DNA from: Mariprofundus sp. NF
Lineage (GTDB): Bacteria > Pseudomonadota > Zetaproteobacteria > Mariprofundales > Mariprofundaceae
Reading direction: 5' to 3'
Length of the DNA stretch: 64,000 nucleotides
Assembly: GCF_013387455.1 (NCBI RefSeq)
Contig: NZ_VWNC01000002.1
Location: 297,001-361,000 of the forward strand
A program made the position numbers and the translations under genes. The notes under the pieces are model-generated. The model did no database searches, was not told the DNA's origin, and saw only the letters and a program-made list of their open reading frames with translations. Positions 7,686-12,905 of this stretch are shown here, one piece after another (within the stretch, counting starts at the first letter, position 1; each line of letters begins with the position of its first letter).

Positions 7686-7731
7686 AAAATGGCCTGATCG
7701 ACGCCATCGAAATTAGTGTGAACAGGCCCTA
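7686..7731. repeat. Single end of a dispersed repeat overlapping the rpoH stop
   Basis: About 46 bases matching the right end of the 24232-24496 element at roughly 40 positions; both contain GCCATCGAAATT and AACAGGCCCTAG. The last bases supply the rpoH TAG stop (7729-7731). Only one end is present here, with no matching inverted arm beside it. Confidence 0.55.
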
Positions 7732-8553
7732 GTTGGCTACAGCCTCTTTCAGTTTTTTCATCGCCCGTGCTTCCAGCTGTCGCACCCGCTCAATAGAGAC
7801 ACCGAAATCTTCAGCAAGATCTTTCAGTGTTGCAGGCTCTTCAGAGATGTGACGACGTTCGACGATCAGGCGATCACGATCAGAGAGCGTGCTCATTGCT
7901 GAGTAGAGCGCACTCTTGCGGTGATCATCCCAGTTGCTTTGCATAGTGATCTCTTCCGGCGTTGCACTATCAGAGGGCAGGCCATGCACCAGCGCATCAC
8001 CCTCATCATACTCAGCATCCAGTGATACATCGCGCTGCAAAAATGCGTTGGCCGCCTCCTGATACTCACCACCGGTAAGTCCGTAATCAGCACCCACCTC
8101 ATCAGCTCTGCTACCACCATCAAGCGCGGCAATGGCATTCTTGGCCTTCTGCAGACCAGCGAAAACGCGGCGCTGCAACTTGTTGGTACCAAGCTTAACA
8201 ATGCTCCATGAGCTGAGGATGTAGTCGTGAATCGAGGCGCGCACCCACCATGATGCGTAGGTCATCAGGCGGAAACCCTTGTCCGGGTCAAAACGTTTCA
8301 CCGCATGCATCAGACCCATCGTACCTTCCTGAATCAGATCCATCTCAGGCAGACCGAAATGCCGGTATTCACGAGCAATAGCAGCCACACCACTTAAATT
8401 GGCAACCACCAACTGGCGTGCTGCATCGCGATCTTCATGCTCATGCCACAACCGTGCAAGACGAATCTCCTCCTCACGATCGAGGCGCTCCACTTTACGC
8501 ATATCACGCGAAAAAAGAGCCAGACTTGTCATCTCTGCTGTTGTTGCTACCAC
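7729..8553 (-). CDS. rpoH: RNA polymerase heat-shock sigma factor (sigma-32)
   Basis: Sigma-70-family factor of about 274 residues that directs transcription of chaperone and protease genes. Region 2 is clear (LIQEGTMGLMHAVKRFDPDKGFRLMTYASWWVRASIHDYIL), with the region 2.4 tryptophan pair. Region 4 ends with a helix-turn-helix (DFGVSIERVRQLEARAMKKL). The short form without region 1.1, with SLALFSRDMRKVERL at the start, is typical of RpoH. GTG 8553 is chosen because GGAGG lies 10 bases upstream; an ATG 21 bases later has a weak site. A CIRCE operator lies 33 bases upstream. The stop codon is embedded in a dispersed repeat. Confidence 0.92.
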   Translation of the reverse strand: MVATTAEMTSLALFSRDMRKVERLDREEEIRLARLWHEHEDRDAARQLVVANLSGVAAIAREYRHFGLPEMDLIQEGTMGLMHAVKRFDPDKGFRLMTYASWWVRASIHDYILSSWSIVKLGTNKLQRRVFAGLQKAKNAIAALDGGSRADEVGADYGLTGGEYQEAANAFLQRDVSLDAEYDEGDALVHGLPSDSATPEEITMQSNWDDHRKSALYSAMSTLSDRDRLIVERRHISEEPATLKDLAEDFGVSIERVRQLEARAMKKLKEAVAN

Positions 8554-8585
8554 CTGAAAATCACCTCCAAATCGATTTGAAACCT

Positions 8586-8612
8586 TTAGCACTCAGATTG
8601 TAAGAGTGCCAA
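8586..8612 (-). promoter_or_regulatory. CIRCE operator (HrcA binding site) in front of rpoH
   Basis: The plus strand reads TTAGCACTC, nine bases, GAGTGCCAA. This matches the CIRCE consensus TTAGCACTC-N9-GAGTGCTAA at 17 of 18 positions with the exact spacing. HrcA binds this element and releases it on heat shock. The site overlaps the edge of the predicted -10 box and lies in the 5' leader of rpoH. Confidence 0.88.
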
Positions 8613-8639
8613 TTTAATAATTAAAACAGTGTTAAGCAA
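8611..8639 (-). promoter_or_regulatory. Predicted promoter of rpoH
   Basis: On the minus strand TTGCTT (8639-8634), a 17-base spacer and TAAATT (8616-8611) form a moderate sigma-70-type promoter. Its -10 box touches the CIRCE arm, so HrcA would block polymerase. Each hexamer matches the consensus at four of six positions. Confidence 0.5.
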
Positions 8640-8641
8640 GC

Positions 8642-11207
<2,566 letters not shown>

Positions 11208-11492: not shown

Positions 11493-12905
11493 TCAATCGC
11501 TCTTTTGCGGCAACTTCACCAGTGCAAAGACCTGATCACCGCGACGATCCATCATCACACGCAGTACTTCACCATGTTTAAAGTTTTTAGCCAGCTTGGC
11601 GAAGGCTTTCATATCAGGCACATCTTTACCGTTAATACGATAGATCACATCACCACGTTGAATGCCTGCATTGGCGGCGGGCAGGCCCTTTTGCACCTGT
11701 TGCACGACAACACCGTTTTTCACGCGTGTACGCAGTCTGGCTGCCATATCGGTGGAGAGATTCTCTACCACCATACCCAGTCGCACCTTCGACTTATCGA
11801 CTTTCTGCTGGCCGTTGCGTGCCACCTGATCATCCGGCATCGCTTCAACGACAACATTGAGCGTTTTCTGTCTGCCATCACGAATGATGCCAACCTTCAC
11901 CTTGTCTCCAGGTGCATGGCGGGCCACGCGGATCGGCAGATCATGGGCTTTAGTGATCAACTCACCATCAATAGAAACAATCACATCACCGGCACGAATA
12001 CCCGCTTTATCGGCTGCTGAACCCGCTTCAACCTGCGGCACCAGGGCGCCGTGGCGATCTTTGAGGCCGAGCGCTTTCATGGTCTCTTTATCGACATCAG
12101 TGATATGTACACCGAGCCTGGCACGGGTCACATGCCCCTTCTCTTTCAGTTCATCAAGGATTGGCTTGGCAAGATTGATCGGGATGGCAAAACCGATACC
12201 GTTATTGCCGCCACTGCGTGAATAGATGGCAGTATTGATACCGACCAGTTCACCTTTGCTGTTAAACAGCGGCCCGCCGGAGTTGCCGGGGTTAATGGCG
12301 GCATCGGTCTGAATGAAATCATCATAGGGGCCGGAGCCGATCACTCGTCCTTTGGCTGAAACAATACCCGCAGTGACAGTCTGGGAGAGACCGAACGGGT
12401 TACCGATGGCAACCACCCAGTCACCCACACGCAGAACATCGGAGTTACCGATCTTCACTGTTTTAAGGTTTTTGCCCTTCACCTTGAGCAGCGCCACATC
12501 CAGTTTGGAGTCGGTACCGATGATCTTGGCCTGTAGTTCAGTGCCATCGCGCATCTTCACGACCACTTCGTCTGCACCGTCAACCACATGGTTGTTGGTC
12601 ACCACATAACCATCAGCAGAGATCACAAAACCTGTTCCCAGTGCATGTTTCTCCTGCTGCTGGCGAGGCATGTTACGGAAGAAATCGTTAAAGAAGTCAT
12701 CAAATGGCGTGCCCTGCGGGCCACCGAATCCAGGTGGAATACCACCTTGCAGTGCCTGTTTGGCATGCTGGGTGGTACTGATATTGACAACGGCATCAGC
12801 CTGCTCGGCAGCCAGATCAGCAAAACTTTCAGGCATAGCCTGTGCAGGCAGGGCCCATGTAACGGCAATCAACAACATCGGAATCAATGGTCTGAAATAG
12901 TGCAA
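11493..12905 (-). CDS. degP: Do/DegP family periplasmic serine protease-chaperone
   Basis: Protein of 470 residues: signal peptide (1-23, cleaved near AQA-MPES), a trypsin-like domain and two PDZ domains (about 260-350 and 375-465). The catalytic triad is His106 (TNNHVVDG), Asp136 (SKLDVALL) and Ser209 (NPGNSGGPL). A Gly/Pro-rich LA loop with FNDFFRN lies between the signal and the protease domain. These proteins refold or degrade damaged envelope proteins. Start is TTG 12905 with AAGGAG 6 bases upstream. It lies downstream of rseC, so a sigma-E link is plausible. DegP versus DegQ cannot be separated here. Confidence 0.93.
   Translation of the reverse strand: MHYFRPLIPMLLIAVTWALPAQAMPESFADLAAEQADAVVNISTTQHAKQALQGGIPPGFGGPQGTPFDDFFNDFFRNMPRQQQEKHALGTGFVISADGYVVTNNHVVDGADEVVVKMRDGTELQAKIIGTDSKLDVALLKVKGKNLKTVKIGNSDVLRVGDWVVAIGNPFGLSQTVTAGIVSAKGRVIGSGPYDDFIQTDAAINPGNSGGPLFNSKGELVGINTAIYSRSGGNNGIGFAIPINLAKPILDELKEKGHVTRARLGVHITDVDKETMKALGLKDRHGALVPQVEAGSAADKAGIRAGDVIVSIDGELITKAHDLPIRVARHAPGDKVKVGIIRDGRQKTLNVVVEAMPDDQVARNGQQKVDKSKVRLGMVVENLSTDMAARLRTRVKNGVVVQQVQKGLPAANAGIQRGDVIYRINGKDVPDMKAFAKLAKNFKHGEVLRVMMDRRGDQVFALVKLPQKSD

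Follow-up and report, generated by a model that had tools for sequence, protein, structure and literature searches.

The short gap upstream of rpoH in Mariprofundus sp. NF raises the question of whether the gene for sigma-32 is itself placed under the repressor HrcA through a CIRCE operator. The window, meaning the whole 64-kb stretch of DNA that was analyzed, holds the following features around this gap:

7729 to 8553, minus strand: rpoH (sigma-32 subfamily), 274 aa, GTG start, assigned from the open reading frame and profile matches
8561 to 8568, minus strand: ribosome-binding site of rpoH, GGAGGTGA, read from the sequence
8586 to 8612, minus strand: CIRCE, putative HrcA operator of rpoH, 17/18, reading TTGGCACTC-N9-GAGTGCTAA on the strand of the gene
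8611 to 8616, minus strand: candidate −10 box of rpoH, TAAATT, weak, overlapping CIRCE by two bases, not above shuffles
8634 to 8639, minus strand: candidate −35 box of rpoH, TTGCTT, weak, kept in relatives, missed by the promoter scan
8642 to 10720, minus strand: open reading frame upstream of rpoH, which we take from its sequence to be ligA; longest reading frame, true start not fixed

The CIRCE sits in the 88-base gap from the ligA stop at 8642 to the rpoH start at 8553. A 12-base palindrome, CAAATCGATTTG, adjoins the ribosome-binding site (8569 to 8580, minus strand); it is shared with the relative G015 and missing from the remaining relatives shown. A few genes upstream of ligA and rpoH, on the same strand, lies a gene at 11493 to 12905 that presumably encodes an HtrA/Deg-like serine protease.

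On the plus strand, positions 8586 to 8612 read TTAGCACTC-N9-GAGTGCCAA. Against the CIRCE criterion (TTAGCACTC-N9-GAGTGCTAA, exact spacing, few mismatches), 17 of the 18 arm bases agree and the 9-base spacer is exact. Allowing up to three mismatches, a pattern scan of the window returned this site alone, and shuffled windows gave a mean of 0.01 such matches against the one-mismatch site observed, which bears out the earlier description of the site by a sequence-only reading of this DNA. Throughout the 2.53-Mb genome, two sites with up to three mismatches were found, one before rpoH (one mismatch) and one upstream of groES (three mismatches), and a reversed control pattern also gave one match at this threshold. 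Chance resemblance was rejected on the expectation for the window. That the repeat is either such a resemblance or a functionless relic, for which the weak promoter alone would speak, has next to no probability in our view; its arms are conserved in 14 genomes from several genera, and this reading can be regarded as already refuted at the sequence level.

With regard to the gene itself, RpoH passed NF005143 (NCBIfam, sigma-32 subfamily) with 272 bits at a cut-off of 241 and stayed under the cut-off of 323 for TIGR02392 (the rpoH_proteo equivalog) with 271 bits, as likewise did a zetaproteobacterial relative (L283, 284 bits). The predicted protein was filed as a member of the sigma-32 subfamily, not as a TIGR02392 equivalog. 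The possibility that a different gene is the better RpoH here was rejected, since the runner-up for TIGR02392 reached 160 bits and RpoH was far ahead. Its relatives belong to Mariprofundus and further Zetaproteobacteria; among those with a name, Mariprofundus sp. KV is nearest at 97%.

The candidate promoter, TTGCTT-N17-TAAATT, matches the consensus at 8 of 12 positions. For this genome, the promoter scan of the rpoH upstream region reported no site, and the best sigma-70 score was not above shuffles (p = 0.72). Among the six Mariprofundus genomes with CIRCE, five retain the arrangement, one of them (G007) with TTGATT. Stronger promoters were seen in three relatives: TTGACA-N17-TATAAT in G036 and TTGACT-N16-TATAAT in G024, both with TATAAT within the CIRCE spacer, and TTGACA-N16-TATAAT adjoining CIRCE in G034. 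Wherever such a strong sigma-70 promoter was seen, CIRCE covers or abuts it. The operator thus stays on the promoter though the promoter shifts relative to it, which argues for a repressor site. The proposed overlap with the −10 box is plausible in this genome from the two shared bases, but weak there, and clear in G024 and G036.

The genome also encodes the repressor. A 343-aa open reading frame followed by grpE matched PF01628 with 193.8 bits (cut-off 22.2), and CIRCE was scored at 15/18 before groESL (upstream of groES) and at 13/18 before hrcA (position −55), the rpoH site being the best of the three. The search for hrcA and further CIRCE sites that had been suggested as a check was hence positive. 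Just downstream of the groESL CIRCE lies a sigma-32-like promoter, GTTGAAA-N14-CCCCAT, and from these motifs groESL is probably driven both ways, by HrcA/CIRCE and by sigma-32. Sigma-32-type boxes also precede htpX, htpG, and fxsA in this genome. Another sigma-32-like box lies within the hrcA coding sequence (G000:C3:180846-180872, L171), approximately 400 bases before grpE, and recurs inside hrcA in seven genomes (G000, G003, G007, G011, G015, G017, and G020); it may reflect a conserved protein stretch only, or an internal promoter for grpE-dnaK.

Conservation was followed in 41 zetaproteobacterial genomes (G000 to G040), in 32 of which the upstream region of the main rpoH (rpoH-A) could be read. 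The others were omitted owing to a contig end (G037), a gene split over contigs (G014), no rpoH found (G004, G008, G019), or the presence of a second rpoH only (G006, G013, G021, G022). G019 has hrcA and a groESL CIRCE, and at 92% genome completeness its missing rpoH is probably an assembly gap. A gene for HrcA was detected in 18 of the 41 genomes. CIRCE of at least 15/18 precedes rpoH in 14 of the 32 genomes, spanning several genera, and all remaining upstream regions score 12 or less. Seemingly degenerate CIRCE relics (11 to 12 of 18) in G003, G017, and G018 were dismissed as noise, as other site-less upstream regions also reach 11 to 12.

The operator co-occurs with the repressor: it was found in 14 of 17 genomes with hrcA and in none of the 15 without it (Fisher p = 1.5e-6, not corrected for kinship). 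The corresponding counts in the named-record set, comprising largely the same genomes, were 10 of 16 and 0 of 26. The RpoH tree offers two informative pairs that are independent and placed on supported branches. Both are concordant, but this number cannot reach significance, and a tree-corrected association is not claimed from so few pairs. Among named strains, Mariprofundus micogutta ET2 and strain KV have both hrcA and the operator, and M. ferrooxydans PV-1, M. erugo P3, and strain EBB-1 have neither. The absence of HrcA from the acidophilic zetaproteobacteria examined in PMC10490939, as stated in the accessible part of that paper, agrees with this patchy loss of hrcA. Three of the 17 hrcA-bearing genomes (G003, G017, G031) lack the rpoH site, which shows that a genome encoding HrcA can do without it. 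The question of whether relatives keep the operator can be answered positively, as close and distant ones do so in step with hrcA, and this conservation together with the presence of hrcA supports the earlier proposal that rpoH is under HrcA/CIRCE control.

HrcA could still bind here and matter little, if rpoH mRNA came mostly from ligA read-through and the amount of sigma-32 depended mainly on translation, stability, or chaperone binding, in the manner of Escherichia coli, where its control is classically post-transcriptional. Terminator prediction gave none in the 88-base gap, so that read-through from ligA could bypass or dilute control at the weak rpoH promoter of this genome. However, across the 14 zetaproteobacterial rpoH sites the arms hold 1.89 and 1.81 bits per position, compared with 0.57 for the spacer and 0.49 and 0.30 for the drifting flanks. 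Together with the lack of the site in each of the 15 readable genomes without hrcA, this conservation shows that the site is subject to selection dependent on HrcA. Moreover, CIRCE is still there in genera beyond Mariprofundus that have no ligA in the upstream stretch examined (up to 1.5 kb). We consider it improbable that read-through and post-transcriptional control leave HrcA with so small a role.

The repeat could alternatively act as RNA, as a hairpin, thermometer, or stability element in the rpoH leader instead of a DNA operator. A 9-bp hairpin is possible in its transcript, and some bacteria are known in which a leader CIRCE influences the stability of the mRNA. However, the folding energy is ordinary (z about −0.9) and Rfam gives no credible match. 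Three of the 14 right arms carry a T to C change opposite an unchanged A, which breaks the pair, and seven other left arms carry A to G, substitutions indicating that the sequence is kept and not the pairing. With TATAAT in the spacer (G024, G036), transcription would begin no earlier than the second arm, leaving no hairpin in the RNA, and the site is missing where hrcA is absent. An RNA thermometer or known leader RNA was rejected on the folding, the Rfam result, and the pair-breaking changes, and a role of the repeat as RNA is very unlikely overall.

Taken together, the conserved arms and the co-occurrence of operator and hrcA make it very likely that HrcA represses rpoH via the CIRCE at 8586 to 8612. 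As a whole, the data are best explained by a working HrcA operator on the rpoH promoter within a feed-forward loop with GroE feedback, a reading in which we have considerable confidence. At normal temperature, the GroE chaperonin would keep HrcA active, and the repressor would occupy the promoter and start region and limit rpoH transcription. Under heat or unfolded-protein stress, HrcA activity would drop and rpoH, groESL, and hrcA-grpE would be freed. The sigma-32 holoenzyme would then transcribe htpG, htpX, and fxsA, as well as groESL from the second promoter just downstream of its CIRCE, and newly made GroE would re-arm HrcA. HrcA would thereby act on groESL both directly and through rpoH, a feed-forward loop closed by the GroE feedback. 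We infer the cascade from heat through HrcA inactivation and rpoH induction to the sigma-32 regulon, and it becomes more concrete with the sigma-32-type boxes at htpG, htpX, and fxsA in the same genome. GroE stimulation and heat inactivation of HrcA are carried over from other species, and binding at this site, repression, and the order of events are deduced. In Campylobacter jejuni, DNA binding by HrcA is stimulated by GroE and lost on heating according to the accessible text of PMC8533110.

Comparison with known systems places this wiring in context. HrcA and CIRCE control the groESL and dnaK operons in Bacillus subtilis and many bacteria. The operator, repressor family, and promoter location there, as also in C. 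jejuni in the accessible text of PMC8533110, are the same as here, but the target here is a sigma-factor gene and repression would be relayed to a second regulon. The closest precedent is Geobacter sulfurreducens, for which a CIRCE before rpoH was predicted in 2004 (PMC545781, Table 8), likewise an N9 CIRCE just upstream of the gene (position −51 there). As far as the accessible part of that paper goes, hrcA-grpE-dnaK-dnaJ and groESL of G. sulfurreducens carry CIRCE too, as hrcA and groESL do here, but there all three operons have consensus sites, whereas here the rpoH site is strongest and that of hrcA weak (13/18). The prediction was likewise sequence-based, and a promoter swap of the kind considered below is absent from its description in that part.

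An even draw of 60 Pseudomonadota contained 45 non-zetaproteobacterial genomes, of which 3 had CIRCE before rpoH and 19 had any such CIRCE. In another pseudomonadotal group, around G055, perhaps Burkholderiales judging by the protein, CIRCE with at most one mismatch precedes rpoH in 21 of 25 genomes, and the RpoH of G055 passes TIGR02392 with 378 bits. The wiring is known, recurrent, and lineage-specific, not new, although a search of open-access literature turned up nothing on rpoH being controlled by HrcA in zetaproteobacteria. The surprise implied by treating HrcA and RpoH as alternatives was overstated, given the G. sulfurreducens prediction (PMC545781, accessible part) and the rule in that other group.

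The relatives without the operator add a further aspect. In some proteobacteria, e.g., Caulobacter, rpoH promoters are sigma-32-dependent and autoregulated. Such a promoter is not present at rpoH of this genome, which has CIRCE instead, and resembles the predicted promoter of CIRCE-less Mariprofundus. CIRCE precedes rpoH-A in six Mariprofundus genomes (G000, G007, G011, G015, G016, G020) and is missing in nine (G001, G002, G003, G005, G009, G010, G012, G017, G018), the latter forming one group with moderate support (89/70) in one tree and two groups in the other. With or without CIRCE, rpoH lies behind ligA in 14 of these 15 genomes; for G012, no ligA was found within the stretch examined. Eight of the nine CIRCE-less Mariprofundus, G012 being the exception, carry CTTGAA-N15-C(C/T)(C/T)(C/T)A(C/T) upstream of rpoH, and four more genera (G028, G030, G031, G032) carry CTTGTA-N15-CC(C/T)TAT. 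In total, the box was found in 12 of 18 CIRCE-less and in none of 14 CIRCE-bearing upstream regions, never together with CIRCE, and in all three hrcA-bearing genomes that lack the operator (G003, G017, G031). The box agrees with CTTGAAA-N11/16-CCCCAT, the sigma-32 consensus in the accessible part of PMC545781.

The box pattern was written after some upstream regions had been viewed (W at position 5 after G028 and its relatives; a looser form was used for G017), which makes the shuffle expectation of 0.01 too favorable to the result at rpoH. Its independent support comes from the heat-shock genes matched elsewhere. Genome-wide, 15 genomes gave 94 sites compared with 32 for the reversed control, G000 alone showing no enrichment (4 versus 6). 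Of these sites, 54 precede htpG, fxsA, htpX, rpoH, grpE, dnaK, clpB, hsp20, or lon: 13 for htpG, 11 for fxsA, 9 for htpX, 9 for rpoH (one, L311, assigned by coordinates), 4 for grpE, 3 for dnaK, 2 each for clpB and hsp20, and 1 for lon, where the checked representatives of grpE, clpB, hsp20, and lon fell below NCBIfam cut-offs and those of clpB and lon were fragments. A further 3 precede trxC, 8 have no open reading frame, and 7 are those within hrcA. Among nine zetaproteobacterial genomes inspected upstream of groESL, four (G000, G019, G031, and G034) have a GTTGA variant, and no box was found in the other five (G003, G017, G024, G029, and G033).

A second rpoH, 56 to 61% identical, forms its own clade of 13 rows (loci L138 to L150) and occurs mostly in genomes without hrcA. 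It is an extra gene in G020, G005, G010, G003, G018, G017, G002, G009, and G001 and the only one in G021, G006, G022, and G013. Neither CIRCE nor the sigma-32 box was found in the 12 of its upstream regions long enough to scan.

These motifs suggest that rpoH has moved between repression by HrcA and self-activation by sigma-32. In a single genus, one and the same rpoH gene, with ligA as its neighbor in most cases, would have traded a housekeeping promoter repressed by HrcA for one activated by sigma-32, making repressor control and self-activation interchangeable ways to a heat-inducible rpoH, with the operator lost first and hrcA later in most; we lean slightly towards this view. The order is suggested by G003 and G017, which keep hrcA and already have the sigma-32 box at rpoH. 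Among these genomes, most of which would have lost hrcA, a second rpoH is common, and in some of them grpE also carries a sigma-32 box. Most simply read, self-activation took the place of HrcA repression before most of these genomes lost hrcA, the direction and number of swaps being provisional.

In Mariprofundus sp. NF, an iron-oxidizing marine bacterium, the two classical bacterial heat-shock strategies would accordingly be combined in one hierarchy, the repressor standing over the sigma factor, instead of serving as alternatives. As its cultured relatives vary in hrcA and the operator, induction of rpoH through a repressor and through self-activation can be compared among naturally occurring members of the genus. 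They can also serve to study how HrcA is lost while the heat-shock response is kept.
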